A DNA stretch of 64,000 bases from Oceanicaulis sp. (lineage in GTDB: Bacteria; Pseudomonadota; Alphaproteobacteria; Caulobacterales; Maricaulaceae). Within the stretch, counting starts at the first letter, position 1. Each line of letters begins with the position of its first letter. This document shows, one piece after another, positions 11,404 through 29,955 of the stretch. The notes beneath the pieces were generated by a model. That model made no database searches. It was not told where the DNA came from and saw only the letters and a list, made by a program, of their open reading frames with translations. The stretch covers positions 1 through 64,000 of the forward strand of contig JAFIEB010000047.1 of NCBI GenBank assembly GCA_020832735.1, given 5' to 3'. Position numbers and translations under genes: made by a program.

Positions 11404-11826
11404 TCAGCGCAAATCCAGACATGGCGCGCCCGCAAGCGCAGACGCCTTGACCAGCCCCGCATCGCGCGTCGCCAGCGGGGCGTCAAGGTCCAGCGCGAGG
11501 GCGAGATAGGCGGCGTCGAAGAGGGAGAGGTTTTCAGTCAGGCCCAAGTCTATCAGCCCGGCGATCTGGCGCCGTGTCAGGCAGGGCCATGTCTCAACAT
11601 CCAGCAAATCGAGAGCATCAACCAGGGGCGCGGCATTTGTCTTGTGAGCGCGCGCATAGCGGACCACCAGATTATAGGTTTCCCAAAGAAAAATGTCTGG
11701 CGCCACGAAGCGCGCGCCGGAATTCGGGTCCAGCAGCGCGCGGGACGCGGGCGTCTCCTGAGACGGCAACACAAGAGACGCCGCAGCCGATGCGTCCAGC
11801 ACAATTACGCCAGACCGCCCGGTCAC
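11404..11826 (-). CDS. vapC: PIN-domain ribonuclease toxin, VapC family
   Basis: A 140-residue PIN-domain protein. The acidic active-site residues are visible: D11 in VLDASA, E49 in LWETYN, D104 in SLFDAAYLAL and D122 in LATRDAGL. VapC toxins cleave RNA, often tRNA, and are held inactive by the antitoxin encoded just upstream. The start overlaps the antitoxin stop by four bases (ATGA), the usual coupled arrangement. The pair interrupts a valine-catabolic gene series. Confidence 0.88.
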   Translation of the reverse strand: MTGRSGVIVLDASAAASLVLPSQETPASRALLDPNSGARFVAPDIFLWETYNLVVRYARAHKTNAAPLVDALDLLDVETWPCLTRRQIAGLIDLGLTENLSLFDAAYLALALDLDAPLATRDAGLVKASALAGAPCLDLR

Positions 11827-12257
11827 GAGCGTATCAGCTCCTTAAGTTCCTCCCAGCTCATCGCATCAAGTTCGGGATCGGGTTCCATCTGGGCCTGCAG
11901 CGCCTTGATCTTCTCCAGCAGCTCCGGCCCCGACAGCTTGCGCGGCCGCGGCTCGGGACGTTTGGCGCCGGACAGGCCCATCAGGCTGGCGCGCATGCGA
12001 TCACGCAGGCCGGGATCGGCCTTGAGCATCGCTTCGGCCTCGGCATAGGGATCGGCCCCGGGGACGGGTTCATTCCCGAAAGCAGCCTGCCGGTCGCCAT
12101 CGGCCACGCCGCGAGCGGCGCCGGGCGCCTGCGCGCCGTAGATCGTCGCCACCGGCTTGCCGTGGCGGGTGATCACCAGCGGCTCGCCGGTCTCCTCCAG
12201 CTCGTCGAGCAGGCGCGACAAATGGGTTTTGGCTTCCAGCACGCCGACATATTTCAT
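11823..12257 (-). CDS. Phd/YefM-family antitoxin
   Basis: The N-terminus KYVGVLEAKTHLSRLLDELEETGEPLVITRHGKPVATI is a clear Phd/YefM DNA-binding fold. A long C-terminal part follows, ending in an acidic helix (PELDAMSWEELKELIRS) that probably wraps the toxin. From the ATG at 12257 the protein has 144 residues, longer than typical antitoxins of about 80-90. The track start at 12326 is rejected because its extra 23 residues (SGQNSGQTSDQN...) are simply translation of the operator repeats. It is probably autoregulated through those repeats. Confidence 0.85.
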   Translation of the reverse strand: MKYVGVLEAKTHLSRLLDELEETGEPLVITRHGKPVATIYGAQAPGAARGVADGDRQAAFGNEPVPGADPYAEAEAMLKADPGLRDRMRASLMGLSGAKRPEPRPRKLSGPELLEKIKALQAQMEPDPELDAMSWEELKELIRS

Positions 12258-12272
12258 GAGCCTGCGCTCCCG

Positions 12273-12322
12273 ATTCTGGTCAGATGTCTGACCAGAATTC
12301 TGACCAGAATTATGGTCAGAAT
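12273..12322. promoter_or_regulatory. Operator of the Phd/VapC pair: nested inverted repeats
   Basis: The arms ATTCTGGTCAGA (12273-12284) and TCTGACCAGAAT (12287-12298) form a perfect 12-base inverted repeat with a TG spacer. A second pair follows, ATTCTGACCA (12297-12306) and TGGTCAGAAT (12313-12322), with a six-base spacer. The motif TCTGACCA/TGGTCAGA thus occurs four times just upstream of the antitoxin start. That is the arrangement expected for conditional autorepression by Phd-type complexes. Confidence 0.75.
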
Positions 12323-12334
12323 ACACGCAAGACG

Positions 12335-15669: not shown

Positions 15670-16302
15670 TCACACCTGCCCGCTCGGCCTTGCTCGGCAC
15701 GCCTCACGCCAGGCCGCCAGCGCTTTGAGTTCGGGTTCAGGCTCCATCTTCACCCACCCAGCAAAGTCGACGAAGACCAGCGCGGAGATGTCGGCGAAGC
15801 TGAAGGCGTCGCCGGCGAGCCAGGGGGTTTCACGCAGGCGTTCGTCCATCACCTTGAAGAATCGCTCGCCGCGCGCGCGGCCGCGTTCGGCGAGTTCGGG
15901 GATTTGCGGGACGGGGTCGGGGCCGGGCAAGGCGCGGTCTTTCAGGGCTTTGGAGGAGTTGCGCAACACCTCCATGATCGCCATCAGCCCCTCGCTTTCC
16001 ACCCGCCAGACCCATTCGGCCGTGCGCGCCTGCTCCAGCGGGGAGCGGCCGAGCAAAGGCGGGTCGGGGTAGAGCGCTTCGAGATAGCGCACGATAGACG
16101 CGTTATCGCACAGCGCCTCGCCGTCTTCGGTGACCAGCACCGGCACGGTGCAGCGCGGATTGAGGGCGCGGAAGCTTTCGGAGAAATGCTCGCCGGCGCG
16201 CAGATCGATCTCCACCCGCTCCACATCCACGCGCTTTTCCGCGATCACCATGCGGGCGCGGCGCGGCGAGGGGGCGGTGGCGCAGTCATAGAAAGTCATC
16301 AT
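15670..16302 (-). CDS. Glutathione S-transferase family protein
   Basis: A 210-residue GST. The N-terminal thioredoxin-like domain (TFYDCATAPSPRRARMVIAEK, then NPRCTVPVLVTEDGEALCDNASIVRYLE) contains the cis-Pro and the glutathione-binding segment. The all-helical C-terminal domain carries WLAGDAFSFADISALVFVDF. I chose the ATG at 16302 (MMTFYD); the longer track start overlaps the amidase gene. Convergent with metC at a six-base distance. The substrate is unknown. Confidence 0.88.
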   Translation of the reverse strand: MMTFYDCATAPSPRRARMVIAEKRVDVERVEIDLRAGEHFSESFRALNPRCTVPVLVTEDGEALCDNASIVRYLEALYPDPPLLGRSPLEQARTAEWVWRVESEGLMAIMEVLRNSSKALKDRALPGPDPVPQIPELAERGRARGERFFKVMDERLRETPWLAGDAFSFADISALVFVDFAGWVKMEPEPELKALAAWREACRARPSGQV

Positions 16303-16321
16303 GGGGCCGGGTTTCCTGATG

Positions 16322-18058
16322 TCATGAGAATTGCGGCGGGCGCTCGTCCGCGACGCCCAGGCGCGCTTCAATCGCCGCGCCCAGCGCCAGGATCACGCCT
16401 TCTTCATAGAGCGGCGCCCACAGGCTGGTGGCGTAAGGCACGCGGTGCAAGACCCCGCTGTCGTCGGCCGGCTGGCCGAAGATGGTACGGGTGGGCGCCT
16501 CGATAAAGCCGGAGCGGAAGGCCAGCTGCGGGTGGCCGGTATAGTTGGTGATGAGCAGCATGGACCCGGCGAAATTCGGCCCGATCACCGCGTCGAGGCC
16601 GGCAAAACGCGCGTCCATCATCTCCATCGCCTCGCGGCGCAGCCGGTCGGCATTGATCAGGTCCACCGCCGAGAGGAAGCGCGTGCGCCGCCATGTATTG
16701 GGCCAGGCCGCATCGTCCTGCCAGCGCAGGCGTTCATCAAGGCCCTCCAGGGTCAGATGCTCGAACGCAGCTGCGGCTTCGGCTTCAAGCTGCATCAGCA
16801 TGGCGTCCCAGGGCCGGTCGTCGACCTCGAACGGGACCAGCTCCACGCCCAGGCTGCGCGCCGCCTCCAGCGCGGCGCGGTCGGGATCGGCGCCGTTTTC
16901 AAACCAGTCCGGATTATAGCCCACGCGCAGGCCCGTCAGGTCGCGGGTGAAGTCGGCTTCAAAGCCGTGATTGCGGCTGGCCGGATCGCCATCATCGCCG
17001 CCATTGAGGGCCGCCAGCACCAGGGCGGCGTCGGGCGCCGAGCGCACGATGGGCCCGATCTTGTCGAGCGACCAGCACAGGGCCATGGCGCCCGTGCGCG
17101 CGACGCGCCCGAAAGTGGGCCGCAGGCCCGTGGATCCGCAGCGGTGGGAGGGCGAGACGATGGAGCCCAGCGTTTCGGTCCCGATGGCAAACGCGCACAG
17201 GGCCGCCGCCGTGGCCGAAGCGGGACCGGCGGACGAGCCGGAACTGCCTTCGGCCGGATTGAACGGATTGCGCGTCACCCCGTCAAACCAGATGTCTCCG
17301 TAAGCAATCGCGCCGCTGGTGGCCTTGCCCAGCAGCACCGCGCCGGCCTCTTCCAGGCGCCGGGCGATCACGGCGGTCTCATCCGCGACACGGTCTGAAT
17401 AGACGGTCGCGCCCCAGGTGGCGGGCAGGCCCTCCACATCGATAATGTCTTTGAGCGCATAGGGGATGCCGTGCAGGGGGCCGCGCACCCGGCCTGCGGC
17501 GCGCTCGGAATCGCGGGCGGCGGCTTCGGCGCGGGCGCGGTCCGCGCTGACATGGACGAAGCATTCCAGCTCATCGGCGTGCGCCTCGATGCGGGCGAGA
17601 TAAAGCTCGGTCAGCTCGGCGCTGGTGATCGCGCCGCGGTTCATCCAGGCGGCCAGCCTCCACACCGGCGCATAGGCGATGTCGACAGGATTGGAGGGCA
17701 GAGCCCCGGGATCAGCGGGCAGGCCGGTGACTGCATCGCTCTGCTCGCGGAAATCACGGCCAGGCAGGCGCGGATCGAAGATCAGGCCGGGGTGCAGCCC
17801 ATTGGGCTTTTCAAGCGCGCGCAAACGCTCGGCGCGCGCCTGCCAGGCTTCGAGACCCGACATCATCTGCTCGCGCTGGGCCGGGGTGTAACTCACCCCT
17901 GCCAGCGTCTCGGCGCAGGCCAGCGTGTTGGCGCTCAACCCTTCAGGGCGGGCGGCCGGCGGCGCGCACGCGGCCAGCGCGCTTCCGGCCCCGGCGCCGG
18001 CCATCAGGGCGAGCACGCCGCGGCGCGTCGCGGGCGGGAATGGCGTTTGACGTGTCAT
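16322..18058 (-). CDS. Amidase, exported or lipoprotein-like
   Basis: An amidase-signature hydrolase of about 578 residues. The catalytic elements are the Lys in YALKDIIDV and the serine-rich loop GSSGSSAGPASATA, with GTETLGSIVSPS supplying the remaining serines of the Ser-cisSer-Lys triad. The N-terminus has twin arginines (TRRGVLALMAGAGAGSALAACAPP) and a lipobox-like AAC, which suggests Tat export and lipidation. The ATG at 18058 starts this leader; the track's extension to 18343 crosses the upstream promoter region and is rejected. The substrate is not evident. It is not GatA, which is present at 34.5 kb. Confidence 0.83.
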   Translation of the reverse strand: MTRQTPFPPATRRGVLALMAGAGAGSALAACAPPAARPEGLSANTLACAETLAGVSYTPAQREQMMSGLEAWQARAERLRALEKPNGLHPGLIFDPRLPGRDFREQSDAVTGLPADPGALPSNPVDIAYAPVWRLAAWMNRGAITSAELTELYLARIEAHADELECFVHVSADRARAEAAARDSERAAGRVRGPLHGIPYALKDIIDVEGLPATWGATVYSDRVADETAVIARRLEEAGAVLLGKATSGAIAYGDIWFDGVTRNPFNPAEGSSGSSAGPASATAAALCAFAIGTETLGSIVSPSHRCGSTGLRPTFGRVARTGAMALCWSLDKIGPIVRSAPDAALVLAALNGGDDGDPASRNHGFEADFTRDLTGLRVGYNPDWFENGADPDRAALEAARSLGVELVPFEVDDRPWDAMLMQLEAEAAAAFEHLTLEGLDERLRWQDDAAWPNTWRRTRFLSAVDLINADRLRREAMEMMDARFAGLDAVIGPNFAGSMLLITNYTGHPQLAFRSGFIEAPTRTIFGQPADDSGVLHRVPYATSLWAPLYEEGVILALGAAIEARLGVADERPPQFS

Positions 18059-18282: not shown

Positions 18283-19266
18283 ATGCGTGACGCGATCGGA
18301 AACAGAACCGCCATGAGAAGCGAATACCGCCTGCGCCGTCCATTGGCCGGAGCGCAAGGCGAGGATGGCGAGGTGCTGGAGCAGAAACCCGGCGTCGACA
18401 ACCGGCTCGATGCGGCGTGGAAAAACGCGGCGGCCGCGTTTTCCGCCTACACCGATTTTCGCGCGCGCCACAAAGTCCAGCGCGCCGCGTCCTATCCCGA
18501 CAGCCACATCATGCATTTCTCGATCCTGGCGGCCCTGGTGCTGTTTGAGGGTCTGGCCAACGCCTACTTCTTCTCCAAGGGCTCTGATCTGGGCCTCCTG
18601 GGCGGCTGGATCCAGGCCATCACGGTGGCCTTCACCAATGTGATCGCCGCCTTCTTCCTGGTCGGGTTCCTGGGCCTGCGCCTGTTGCAGAACCCGGTCA
18701 GCCGGCCGTTCTCCTTCTGGGCCGCCGTGGTTGGCGTGCCGCTGGCGCTGGCCTTCATCGTGTTTTTGAACTTCTCTGCCGCGCACTATCGCGACCTGCT
18801 GGAAGTGCAGGCGGCGATGATGACGATGAACGGGGAGTTCGCGCCCAATGGCGAGGTCCTGACCCCGGTCACCCGCGCCCTGACCTTCCAGCCTTTCGAG
18901 ACGCTCGAAGCGCTGCTCTTGTTCATCCTGGGCATCACGTTTGCGGCCATCGCCGCCTTCAAGGGCGCTACTTTCGATGATTCCCTGATCGGGTACGGCG
19001 CGGTCCAGCGCCGGGTGGTGGCCGCTTCGGCCCATCTGTCCGAGCTGATGAAGCGCCAGTACCGCAAGGACGACGCCGACGAGGTGACGCTGGCCAAGGC
19101 TGAAGAGCTCAAAGAGCGGATGGATGAATTCTTCGCCCGCGATTACGAACACTCCGCGGCCCGCTATGACGCCATGGCCAGCCGCCGCTCGAACGGCGCT
19201 GGCGGCGCGGATGCGGGCTATGACCCGGCCTATGATCACGAGCCGCCGCCTTACGCGCGCAGCTAG
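18283..19266 (+). CDS. Multi-pass membrane protein of unknown function, partner of a VWA-like protein
   Basis: A 327-residue protein that I do not recognise. A hydrophilic N-terminus of about 75 residues is followed by four predicted membrane segments: FSILAALVLFEGLANAYFF, ITVAFTNVIAAFFLVGFLGL, FWAAVVGVPLALAFIVFL and ALLLFILGITFAAIAAF. A charged, helical C-terminal tail (LSELMKRQYRKDDADEVTLAKAEELKERMDEFF) follows. A gene for a membrane-anchored VWA-like protein starts 77 bases downstream on the same strand, so the two probably work together. AAGGGG precedes the ATG. Confidence 0.72.
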   Translation: MRDAIGNRTAMRSEYRLRRPLAGAQGEDGEVLEQKPGVDNRLDAAWKNAAAAFSAYTDFRARHKVQRAASYPDSHIMHFSILAALVLFEGLANAYFFSKGSDLGLLGGWIQAITVAFTNVIAAFFLVGFLGLRLLQNPVSRPFSFWAAVVGVPLALAFIVFLNFSAAHYRDLLEVQAAMMTMNGEFAPNGEVLTPVTRALTFQPFETLEALLLFILGITFAAIAAFKGATFDDSLIGYGAVQRRVVAASAHLSELMKRQYRKDDADEVTLAKAEELKERMDEFFARDYEHSAARYDAMASRRSNGAGGADAGYDPAYDHEPPPYARS

Positions 19267-19343
19267 GGTCTCTTGGCCGGGGGTGGCGCGCGCGGCTCCG
19301 GCGCGGCACACTATGGTTAACGCCAGCGGAGGGGGAGCACGCC

Positions 19344-20135
19344 ATGCGATCGAAGGACCTGATAGGCCTGTTCAATATTCTGGTGGTGATCGCCGTGCTG
19401 GGCGCCATCAGCTATGCGGCCATCTCCCTGCAGCCGGCCGAGTATGATTCGGACACGCTGTGCCTGGCCGGAGAACAGCCGCCCCATGTGGTGGTCATGA
19501 TCGACCGCACCGAGGTGATCTACACCCCCGCCCAGGCCAACCAGATTCGCCAGACCATCATCGATGCGCGCAATGCGCTGGAGATCGGCGAGCGGCTCTC
19601 GGTCTACGAGCTCAATCATCGCGGCGAGATCCGCAACACCAACCGGTTCTCGGTGTGCAATCCGGGCCGGGGCGACCAGATCAACCCGCTCTACCGCAAT
19701 CCCCAGCGCGTGCAGGCGCGCTATGACGCCCTGTTCGAGCGCCCGCTGGATCAGGCGCTGGAGGGGTTGTTCGACCTGATCGACTCCCCCGTCACCCCGC
19801 TGCTGGAATCGCTGGCCGAGCTAGGCACGCGGCCCGAATTTGACCGCACCACGCCGCGCCGGCGCGTGGTGCTGATCTCCGACATGTTCCAGAACACGCG
19901 CCTCTACACCGTCTATGGCTGGACGCGCCAGGATCTGGAAAACCGTTTGCCCCATCCGGTCGAGGTGGCCAACGCGATCCGCGACCAGTATGGCGAGGTG
20001 CTGCGGGGCGTGGAGCTGGACGTGTATTATGTCGACCAGCCCGGCTGGAGCGCACGCGAACGCGCCGTCATCCGCGCCCACTGGCGCGAGATATTCCGCG
20101 AGCTGGGCGTGCGCGACCGCTGGACGGAATTCTAG
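19344..20135 (+). CDS. Membrane-anchored VWA-like protein of unknown function
   Basis: A 263-residue protein with one N-terminal membrane anchor (LIGLFNILVVIAVLGAISYAAI) and a globular part. A strand ending in VVVMIDRTE (D54, T56) followed by a helix, and a later strand VVLISDMFQ (D180), resemble the Rossmann-like core of von Willebrand A domains. The MIDAS DxSxS is reduced to D-R-T-E-V, so metal binding is doubtful. A GGAGGGGG site lies upstream of the ATG. It is paired with the preceding membrane protein. No relative of known function is recognised. Confidence 0.68.
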   Translation: MRSKDLIGLFNILVVIAVLGAISYAAISLQPAEYDSDTLCLAGEQPPHVVVMIDRTEVIYTPAQANQIRQTIIDARNALEIGERLSVYELNHRGEIRNTNRFSVCNPGRGDQINPLYRNPQRVQARYDALFERPLDQALEGLFDLIDSPVTPLLESLAELGTRPEFDRTTPRRRVVLISDMFQNTRLYTVYGWTRQDLENRLPHPVEVANAIRDQYGEVLRGVELDVYYVDQPGWSARERAVIRAHWREIFRELGVRDRWTEF

Positions 20136-27265: not shown

Positions 27266-28630
27266 TTACCAGTATATCGCAACGACCTCGACATCCAAAA
27301 GATGCGCATCATTTGGCTTAGGGTTTTCTCTAAAGTGTTCTTGTGGCTGACCACTTGGCTCGCTATCCACCGGAAATAGGGGCAGATCAAGCGCCGTTCT
27401 GACTTTCTCACGGATGGATAGGTCATCAGTAGCGCTAATTTTTAATTGAACAAACGACGACACAATATCTCTGGTTTGCGCGAATGCGATTCTCTGCCCT
27501 TCAGCAGTGTCGTTATTAACCTTCATTTGCGCAATTAACCTATCTATCTCATTTGAATCACCATCAGAGATGGTGAGCTCGCAATGAGAAATTAAATTGT
27601 CCTTGTATCTGGCCAGCGCAAGCCTCAGCTGAGACTCTTTGGGGTCAGTCTTCGGTTCTGCGTGACCTGATTGGATCATTGCATTCCGACTCGCAGATTC
27701 AATTTGTGACGCCAGATCCGGAGCGAATTCACGAAAAATATCTGCTACTTTAATTGGATTCCAATCAGCCTGGAGCCCCGTCTTAGAGATCCTGCACAAC
27801 ATAGTAAATTCATTCTCCGCAAAAAGTATTCTTCTCAAATCCTTCCAATAAGCCAGATGCTCTGTCACCCCAACAATTTTAAGCGGTCTTGATATTATAT
27901 CGGTTAAATCAATTGCGTCGTTATGAACAATGCAATATTGATCTTGATGATTAATTACCGAGTATTGCGAGACCTCACCATCTATTGGAATTAGGCCGGC
28001 GAGCAATTTACTTATCAACTTATTCGCGTTCTTTGCATTATAAACGTCCGAAAATCGCACTTGATTCATGAATAGCGTCGGGCTTTCATCAAACATTTCT
28101 GAGAACTCCGCAATCATAGTGCTTATCTGAAAAATGTATGAAGCGGAAAGCTTAACTTTAAACTCTACTAAATCGCCCCTTATTAGATCTGACGAGATAT
28201 AAATTGAGCCCTCAGGTTTTTCATTGAAAAGCTGATCAATAGTTGGGTATTTTTTGTTCACTTCAATCGGATGAATGCGTTTCAGATCTCTTATTTTATG
28301 AAGTTCGCGAAATAACGATTGCGCGTTCGCTTTGCGAACTGTCTGGAGTGCGCTGCTATTGGAAGTTTGAAATCTCGAATTGAGCTCTGCCGACGGGAGT
28401 GCCGGGGCTCCAGTCGAAACTTTGCTGCCGACTTCTGCAAGGAATTCCTGCTCCGATTGAGCGACAATATTTTCAGTTTGCTCCCCTTTTTGAGATGCCA
28501 AGAGGCTAGCTAGGCTGACCTCATCCAAATAGACGAACTCTCGTAGAGGCTCTTTCGCCCTTTCTTGGGTGATGCCAGCCGACGACGGACCAAAGGCAAT
28601 CCAAGGAGCCCTTCGAGTAAATCTAATCAT
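27266..28630 (-). CDS. DUF6414-like protein of an AT-rich two-gene island
   Basis: A 454-residue protein. The segment REFVYLDEVSLASLLASQKGEQTENI and the later NSRFQTSNSSALQTVRKANAQSLFRELH match what I remember of DUF6414 proteins, which have a conserved N-terminal YLD motif and a VxRKxxxQxxFxEL block. The function of that family is unknown to me. The gene is markedly AT-rich compared with dnaE and lolD on either side. I chose the ATG at 28630, which overlaps the end of the AAA+ gene by eight bases; the track's 28708 start would run deep into that gene. It is likely co-translated with the ATPase and may be its substrate or effector (inference). Confidence 0.7.
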   Translation of the reverse strand: MIRFTRRAPWIAFGPSSAGITQERAKEPLREFVYLDEVSLASLLASQKGEQTENIVAQSEQEFLAEVGSKVSTGAPALPSAELNSRFQTSNSSALQTVRKANAQSLFRELHKIRDLKRIHPIEVNKKYPTIDQLFNEKPEGSIYISSDLIRGDLVEFKVKLSASYIFQISTMIAEFSEMFDESPTLFMNQVRFSDVYNAKNANKLISKLLAGLIPIDGEVSQYSVINHQDQYCIVHNDAIDLTDIISRPLKIVGVTEHLAYWKDLRRILFAENEFTMLCRISKTGLQADWNPIKVADIFREFAPDLASQIESASRNAMIQSGHAEPKTDPKESQLRLALARYKDNLISHCELTISDGDSNEIDRLIAQMKVNNDTAEGQRIAFAQTRDIVSSFVQLKISATDDLSIREKVRTALDLPLFPVDSEPSGQPQEHFRENPKPNDAHLLDVEVVAIYW

Positions 28631-29819
28631 CTCTTCTCGCCCGCACCTTGCTACGCTCAGGCCGACGTGCAACTCGTTCATAGGCTTGCGCAAAATCCTC
28701 TGAGGCAATCAACTTGCGCCCATCCCCCGCCGCAATCAGAGCGGCTTCTGTCCAAATTGAAGAAAGTCGAGCGGCCGACCAGTTATGAGTTCTCAGCGCA
28801 ACATCCCATAATGGAAGGTCTGCGGCACAAGATATCTTGCGGGTTCCTGTCTTCAGTATCTCCCAACGATCAACGACAGTCGGAAGGCCAAATTCAATCT
28901 CCCAGTCGAACCGGCCTGGCCGCATCAGTGCCGGGTCAAGCGCCTCAGCTCGATTTGTTGCGGCGATAACGATTGTAGCATTCTTACTGGAATCGAAACC
29001 ATCCATTAGTGTAAGGAATTGAGCCACAAGCCGCCGCGACGACTCATGCGTATCACCTGCCCTGCTTTCACCAATGCTATCAATTTCGTCAAAGAATATG
29101 ATCGCCTTTCCCGCTTCAGATTTGTTTGCATGCTCGAAAATTTTTCGCAGAATATCCTCTGTATCGCCAACCCACTTAGTGACTATTTCCGGGCCGCTAA
29201 TATCGTAAAAGTCTGCGCCAGATTGCTGCGCAATAATTCTCGCTAAATGCGTTTTACCAGTTCCGGGCGGACCGGTAAAAAGAATTCCTTTGATTGGACG
29301 AGCGCCAATCTCGTCCAATTCTGCTCGACGCTCTAGCTGTGTTTCGATTAATTGCTTAGCTCTAGCAACAACATCGCGATACCCACCAAAATCGTCGAAC
29401 GTTAATCCGTCTTCTTTCGGCTTAAATAAGAAGGAGGCAGGAGAAACGTCTTCGTCTGATGGATGTAACCGCACACGTATCGGCTGATCAGAGAGAATTC
29501 GCTGAATTACTGACGCACCATCGACCTCGACGGTCGCATTTTTCTGCACTGGGAAGCCCTCAGGATTGGACAGCGGTAGCAAGGTGCTCCCGAATTCCCC
29601 TAAAATTGTACCATTCTCCAAAATATCCCTCACAACAGAAACATGTAAACTGCGCGGCCAAGCATCATTGGATACCTGTTTCCATCTCCCGCCAGACGAA
29701 AATATTACATCGCCCTTCTCTAATGCATCCGAATCTACACCACTTATTTTAGCTGTTCGCCCATCTGTTAAACGCAAGAAAACCGTTCCAGTTTCCTCAT
29801 CAATGTACGTGACCTTCAT
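28623..29819 (-). CDS. CDC48-like AAA+ ATPase of an AT-rich two-gene island
   Basis: A single-module classical AAA+ ATPase of about 398 residues. Counting from the track start at 29864, Walker A GPPGTGKT is at 198-205, the pore loop KWVGDTED at 230-237, Walker B IIFFDEID at 255-262, and the second region of homology ATNRAEALDPALMRPGRFD has arginine fingers near 315 and 318. The N-terminal 130 residues look beta-rich and OB-like, as in ARC/Mpa unfoldases, so a hexameric unfoldase or remodeller is likely. There is no protease domain. I prefer the ATG at 29819 because AGGTGA precedes it; 29864 has no visible ribosome site. It overlaps the DUF6414-like gene. Confidence 0.82.
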   Translation of the reverse strand: MKVTYIDEETGTVFLRLTDGRTAKISGVDSDALEKGDVIFSSGGRWKQVSNDAWPRSLHVSVVRDILENGTILGEFGSTLLPLSNPEGFPVQKNATVEVDGASVIQRILSDQPIRVRLHPSDEDVSPASFLFKPKEDGLTFDDFGGYRDVVARAKQLIETQLERRAELDEIGARPIKGILFTGPPGTGKTHLARIIAQQSGADFYDISGPEIVTKWVGDTEDILRKIFEHANKSEAGKAIIFFDEIDSIGESRAGDTHESSRRLVAQFLTLMDGFDSSKNATIVIAATNRAEALDPALMRPGRFDWEIEFGLPTVVDRWEILKTGTRKISCAADLPLWDVALRTHNWSAARLSSIWTEAALIAAGDGRKLIASEDFAQAYERVARRPERSKVRARRDD

Positions 29820-29955
29820 CAGGTCACCTATTTCTTTCTCTTCTAACTCTACATCTGGGTTCATAATTGCATCATGGTCGTGATATCGGAAGAAAAATTC
29901 TTGGCCAACGCTTATTCAATTTTTCCGTGCATCCAAGGTGCCGTAACGGGTCGGA

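Follow-up and report, generated by a model that had tools for sequence, protein, structure and literature searches.

A conserved gene pair for a four-helix membrane protein and an anchored VWA-like protein in Maricaulaceae, and its relatives with motor-like partners

The pair and its two proteins

What is the business of two neighbouring genes that travel together from genome to genome and belong to no named family? The genes considered here, A and B (Table 1), lie in the window, by which we mean the whole 64,000-nucleotide stretch of an Oceanicaulis contig that was analysed. Both reading frames appear in the list of open reading frames where a first, sequence-only reading of this DNA had placed them; they share the + strand, are separated by 77 bases, and are both scored as coding by a simple codon-usage gene caller. 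That reading recognised no family in either protein, and the searches agree: Pfam and NCBIfam return no family for A or B, the PDB searched by sequence returns no relative, and no PADLOC model claims either. Tblastn of the pair in phages gave nothing usable, and viral contigs scanned with the B profile held no relative. LeoBC and LmuB models of PADLOC do pick up members of the A family, which we read as coiled-coil matches, not as kinship. The closest named B, from Alkalicaulis satelles, is 92% identical to the window's.

A is a four-segment membrane protein, as first described: hydropathy gives four transmembrane (TM) segments. Members of the A family range from 320 to 545 aa, the window's A being a short form, and its helical N- and C-terminal ends are predicted to be cytoplasmic. 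The first TM segment carries an invariant glutamate and an asparagine, Asn93, that is kept in 41 of 45 homologues. An AlphaFold model, which had three to four near-identical sequences as input, reaches a mean pLDDT of 41. Kinship with MotA/ExbB was considered and rejected: hhalign of A against the profile of C (the motor-like protein of distant relatives, below) gives a probability of 24%, over the tail stretch only. As judged from its sequence, A is not clearly kin to any known channel or sensor.

B is bitopic, with a single TM segment by hydropathy; what follows this anchor? No single B member matches Pfam VWA in individual-sequence searches. The B profile retrieves VIT-VWA proteins at E values of about 1e-4 to 2e-5 per genome, and these carry Pfam VWA_3 (down to 2e-21); the alignment spans strand 1, the metal loop, helix 1 and strand 2, and sets D54-R-T-E57 of B against DNSGS of a VIT-VWA protein. 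The proposed VWA core is thus matched, at the profile level, to genuine VWA domains. Structure prediction, suggested as a check, points the same way at low model confidence: a model built from four close sequences (mean pLDDT 56) has the order E-H-E-E-H-H-E-H-E-H-E, as expected of VWA topology, and Foldseek with this model returns mostly VWA domains (E to 5e-5; TM-scores of 0.3-0.4 by query), with Rpn10, Sec23, inter-alpha-inhibitor, VWF A1 and integrin I domains at the top.

The sequence-only reading went astray in calling the metal site (DRTEV) degenerate. In an alignment of 34 diverse B homologues, D54, T/S56 and S179-D180 are each present in all 34, position 57 is acidic in 28, and the loop lacks the third Ser of DxSxS; given this invariance, D-x-[T/S]-[D/E] reads as the B family's own signature, not as MIDAS decay, and we take it for a family-specific form of the MIDAS with putative metal binding. 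Cys40 and Cys105, the sole cysteines of the window's B, are conserved, which would place the head of B in an oxidising compartment and implies that it is probably periplasmic and disulphide-bonded. In keeping with a periplasmic head, Proteobacterial relatives of B have a signal-peptide-like N-terminus in place of the TM anchor.

Upstream of A, the amidase and GST genes form a conserved neighbourhood: synteny, examined in six further Maricaulaceae genomes, puts the same two genes opposite the short A-B pair. Elsewhere in the window, a gene for a PIN-domain-like toxin accompanies one for a Phd/YefM-like antitoxin, and a 3-kb, two-gene island of 46-48% GC (against 64-71% in its surroundings) has the look of a horizontal acquisition, perhaps a small defence module of two genes.

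Table 1. Features of the window around the A-B pair and elsewhere (positions are those of the window)
Feature	Positions	Strand	Remarks
PIN-domain-like toxin and Phd/YefM-like antitoxin genes	11404-12326	-	
GST gene	15670-16371		With the amidase gene, conserved neighbour of A in Maricaulaceae
Amidase-family gene	16325-18058	-	Divergent to A; N-terminus twin-arginine-like/lipobox-like; outside the proposed complex
Gene A	18283-19266	+	327 aa; inner-membrane protein, four TM helices (ORF list, codon usage, hydropathy, homologue alignment)
A TM1	18517-18573	+	Residues 79-97; carries Glu89 and Asn93
A Glu89	18547-18549	+	Inside TM1; invariant, 45/45 homologues
A TM2	18616-18672	+	Residues 112-130; carries Asn119 (41/45 homologues)
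A TM3	18712-18768	+	Residues 144-162; then Arg170 (43/45 homologues)
A TM4	18904-18960	+	Residues 208-226; followed by conserved G-x8-GY motif
Gene B	19344-20135	+	263 aa; bitopic, N-terminal TM and predicted periplasmic VWA-like domain
B TM anchor	19368-19424	+	Residues 9-27; GLFNILVVIAVLGAISYAA (hydropathy)
B Cys40	19461-19463	+	32/34 homologues; presumed disulphide with Cys105
B D54-R-T-E57 metal-site-like motif	19503-19514	+	DRTEV at 19503-19517; family form D-x-[T/S]-[D/E]
B Cys105	19656-19658	+	32/34 homologues; presumed disulphide with Cys40
B Ser179-Asp180	19878-19883	+	Invariant second VWA loop, [V/I]SD-M/L-x-Q-N/H-S
Low-GC island	27266-29864	-	Two genes
480-aa protein	27266-28708	-	Low-GC island
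AAA+ ATPase-like protein	28623-29864	-	413 aa; low-GC island

Distribution and linkage of the pair

Do A and B keep company elsewhere? A co-occurrence check, also suggested at the outset, finds them side by side in many other genomes: among 61 relatives, 29 carry B and 28 carry A, the two genes lying next to each other. B occurs in 65 of 137 genomes of the family, in 18 of 385 genomes of a class sample and in 20 of 399 of a phylum sample. An A-like gene lies directly upstream of B in the readable loci of all genera examined (two loci, L100 and L103, are less clear), and the most distant B relatives, from beta- and gammaproteobacteria plus a few alphas, have a weakly A-like protein with 4-6 TM segments in this place; hhalign of the beta/gammaproteobacterial protein against A gives a probability of 79%. 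One genome (G005) carries, as its second locus (L186, 1983-4097), a natural A-B fusion of 704 aa that matches both profiles: four TM segments, a charged helical stretch, a fifth TM segment and a VWA-like domain with DESD and FSDGLENS follow one another. Pairwise distances of A and B are correlated (r = 0.89 over 42 loci, permutation p 0.001), a value to which shared species history contributes. Strict adjacency, the natural fusion and co-evolving distances support a real, functionally linked pair. Neither of the two findings named beforehand as refuting the first reading came about: the genes do stay neighbours elsewhere, and the model of B does resemble VWA domains, at low confidence. The pair is ancient, and it is what stays the same throughout a family found across Alphaproteobacteria and, in a weaker form, in other Proteobacteria.

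Several loci have settings of their own. The VWA part of the L186 fusion carries SDG, a loop of more canonical form. In the beta- and gammaproteobacterial loci L171-L177, which are chromosomal, genes for an OmpA-domain glycine-zipper lipoprotein, a protein with 4-6 TM segments and a secreted VWA-like protein stand in a row. One A-B clade (L062, L101, L183 and L187) adjoins large serine recombinases, and in L062 and L101 the pair also adjoins a VirD4/TraG-like coupling protein, a neighbour that suggests integrative conjugative elements.

The Maricaulaceae form is the short one, with an A of about 325 aa as against about 480 aa in the long form; in the B tree, which has a midpoint root only, the short B proteins are a single clade nested among the long forms. 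All of the 49 or so short copies listed have intact reading frames, the signature motif and the cysteines are retained, and dN/dS values of 0.13-0.24 for the window's A and B against close relatives show that both genes are under purifying selection. No match to C was found in the window's genome, and no motor gene lies beside the pair. Shortened and without a motor, the window's pair is probably a vertically inherited core locus.

The larger cassette of distant relatives

To what is the pair joined elsewhere? Apart from the core locus of Maricaulaceae, there are 22 distinct loci (16 from genomes, 6 from plasmids) where A-B runs straight into a third gene, C. A fourth, D, comes after C in 21 of these, and the contig of the remaining one ends after C. 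Fourteen of the 22 also have a thermonuclease gene, E, either beside D or the cassette or fused to it; at the AB-only loci it is absent. The carriers of ABCD loci are spread across Alphaproteobacteria, the cassette-bearing plasmids including those of Rhizobium, Sinorhizobium, Microvirga, Paracoccus and Tistrella, and G002, the sole genome in the genus to have the full ABCDE cassette too, keeps it apart from its short pair. All four proteins A to D co-vary pairwise (r 0.88-0.92, 20 loci).

C is ZorA/MotA-like: a MotA/ExbB-like TM region, which holds two invariant blocks (N-YY-G-T-L-S and FG-A-T-G-R), leads into a long coiled-coil tail. It matches Pfam MotA_ExbB weakly, ZorA in PADLOC, and the ZorA structures 8qyd and 8vvn in the PDB, with scores that are partly coiled-coil; many relatives match C over the coiled-coil tail alone and, G002 excepted, were left out of the counts, and the coiled coil also explains the spurious matches of C to apolipoprotein, syntaxin and tape-measure proteins. 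D has a TM segment, marked by the invariant motif GLTxAE, and in most members an OmpA-like domain behind it; ZorB2 of PADLOC is matched by two members, at 7e-32 and 2e-33 (1.7e-33), and the D profile matches MotB, PomB and ZorB in the PDB. By alignment only, an invariant Glu of D stands at the position of the MotB/ZorB aspartate; the ion-site aspartate of ZorB is D24/D21, and MotB likewise has an aspartate (PMC11890865).

In L091 (2714-4726) and L094 (5295-6929), single proteins combine a ZorB-like TM segment, an OmpA peptidoglycan-binding domain and a thermonuclease domain; the nuclease of these fusions is apparently anchored to the cell wall. Since it lies behind a peptidoglycan-binding domain in the fused forms, a periplasmic location is suggested for thermonuclease E.

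The surroundings of the two forms differ. The flanks of ABCD loci contribute 74 proteins (the number of distinct ones is not given), several of which reach 1e-10 or better against PADLOC models: PD-Lambda-1, OLD/GajA-like, AbiEii, type II methyltransferase, mad3 and HNH. Integrases, resolvases and transposases are also present, and the defence-like genes are only part of these flanks. Around the short core pair, none of 45 flanking proteins has such a match; any tie to defence belongs to the distant ABCD forms and not to the window's form. PADLOC matches of A, B, C and D members include no ZorC/ZorD, ZorE or ZorF/ZorG, and, among the 25 families of matches listed first, the top matches of the 74 flank proteins include none of ZorC-ZorG. 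The literature on Zorya with thermonuclease, VWA or OmpA yielded no description of the cassette, most subscription papers lying outside the search; both the ABCD(E) cassette and the A-B pair, which is without a Pfam entry, appear undescribed.

What the pair may do

How could such a pair work, with a motor and without one? The account that we prefer, tentatively and at slightly less than an even chance, has A-B as an inner-membrane complex that acts as an envelope sensor or tether in the window's genome, and ABCD(E) as its Zorya-like, motor-coupled counterpart directed against phages or plasmids. A would serve as the subunit within the membrane, its helical ends in the cytoplasm and its invariant glutamate buried; B would hang its disulphide-bonded VWA head in the periplasm from one TM helix and, through the modified metal site, bind or monitor a periplasmic or outer-envelope partner; A would then relay the state of the head across the membrane. 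In distant relatives, A-B would sit on a ZorAB/MotAB-like ion-driven motor, C-D, often with thermonuclease E, and C would most naturally be contacted by the long cytoplasmic parts of A, which the short form lacks. In Maricaulaceae, A has been stripped of most of these parts; since the window's genome has no C and the locus is core, the window's pair is most likely a stand-alone sensor or tether. For ABCD(E), the motor, the frequent thermonuclease and the mobile, partly defence-rich DNA make Zorya-like anti-phage or anti-plasmid envelope systems the most likely reading. Mobile location, thermonuclease and defence neighbours would favour a defence role there, just as core location and selection would point to a resident role in the envelope for the window's pair. 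Of the "stress-sensing or envelope complex" first suggested, it is the envelope part that holds, in general terms, by virtue of the ZorAB/MotAB-like and OmpA-family partners of the relatives.

A mobile plasmid cassette, however, need not mean defence. A and B could instead be a housekeeping tether or integrity complex of the envelope with no defensive role, a somewhat unlikely reading in which the VWA head takes hold of peptidoglycan or of a partner in the outer membrane, while in relatives a motor or OmpA partner gives force or a peptidoglycan anchor, in Tol-Pal-like fashion. The core, syntenic and selected state of the pair in Maricaulaceae suits this reading, as do the lipoprotein gene upstream in the chromosomal beta- and gammaproteobacterial relatives and a survey in which other TM-tethered vWA proteins are proposed as motor-driven force transducers (PMC12204202). 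It sits poorly with the patchy presence of B in the class and family samples, with the plasmid and island sites and the thermonuclease of the ABCD form, odd for housekeeping, and with the anchor itself: the TM helix of B has neither the SxHxLxS motif of published vWA transducers nor an intramembrane acidic residue, and neither that motif nor their intramembrane Asp is present in the TM helix of the B homologues inspected.

A bolder scheme, which we consider unlikely, has the VWA head and a four-TM gate of ABCDE sense a breach at the point of DNA entry and drive a Glu-site ZorAB-like motor, while a periplasmic thermonuclease cuts the crossing DNA; the Maricaulaceae pair would be a domesticated sensor module. 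Quite improbable is that A-B, rather than being part of an energised machine, serves a toxin or conflict system for immunity or as a sensor, its VWA head recognising or neutralising an incoming protein in the periplasm: the strict two-gene linkage, often without C-D, and the coupling-protein and recombinase genes beside the pair in the four loci named above would fit, but no toxin recurs as a neighbour, the genes that do recur there are motor-like ones and nucleases, and the short core pair is without such neighbours. That the short pair is a functionless remnant of ABCD, as the shortened A, the absent C-D and the nesting of the short clade might suggest, is very improbable and is rejected in view of the strong purifying selection, the intact frames and the retained cysteines and catalytic-like signature.

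Why do these genes matter? In the larger form, VWA-type recognition shares a single operon with a ZorAB/MotAB-like ion-driven motor and a nuclease. If the defence reading is true, a sensing module has been added to motor-driven immunity and the trigger of Zorya-like motors becomes testable; if the tether reading is true, the result is a motor-linked envelope complex of a new class. Pair and cassette merit family names.

Which known systems come closest? Like Zorya, the ABCD relatives carry a ZorA/MotA-like C with conserved polar TM residues and a coiled-coil tail, a ZorB-like D with an OmpA domain, and a nuclease. Unlike Zorya, they have A and B at the head of the operon and, among the extra genes tested, no match to ZorC, ZorD, ZorE, ZorF or ZorG; D has Glu, not the Asp of ZorB (PMC11890865), as its acidic TM residue, the nuclease is a thermonuclease, and the window's pair lacks ZorA and ZorB altogether, A and B matching neither. 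With MotAB/PomAB stators, C and D share a profile-level kinship and an OmpA-like peptidoglycan-binding domain but differ in their non-flagellar context, VWA and thermonuclease partners and the Glu in the TM segment of D. The VWA domains of VIT-VWA proteins, Rpn10, Sec23 and integrins share with B the strand order of its low-confidence model, the D-x-[S/T] loop and the SD of the second loop; in B, by contrast, the fifth-position Ser is gone, the acidic fourth position is family-specific, two extra cysteines are present and there is no VIT domain. The vWA force transducers (PMC12204202) resemble B in its predicted layout, one TM helix ahead of a periplasmic vWA domain, and, in the case of the distant ABCD relatives only, in their link to a MotA/TolQ-type motor; B differs in lacking SxHxLxS, the proline-rich linker and the TM Asp, and the published families have no obligate four-TM partner such as A. 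These transducers and Zorya are the nearest known kinds; the window's pair fails those of their defining features that were tested, and we file it as a probable motor-less branch of motor-linked, VWA-headed envelope systems.
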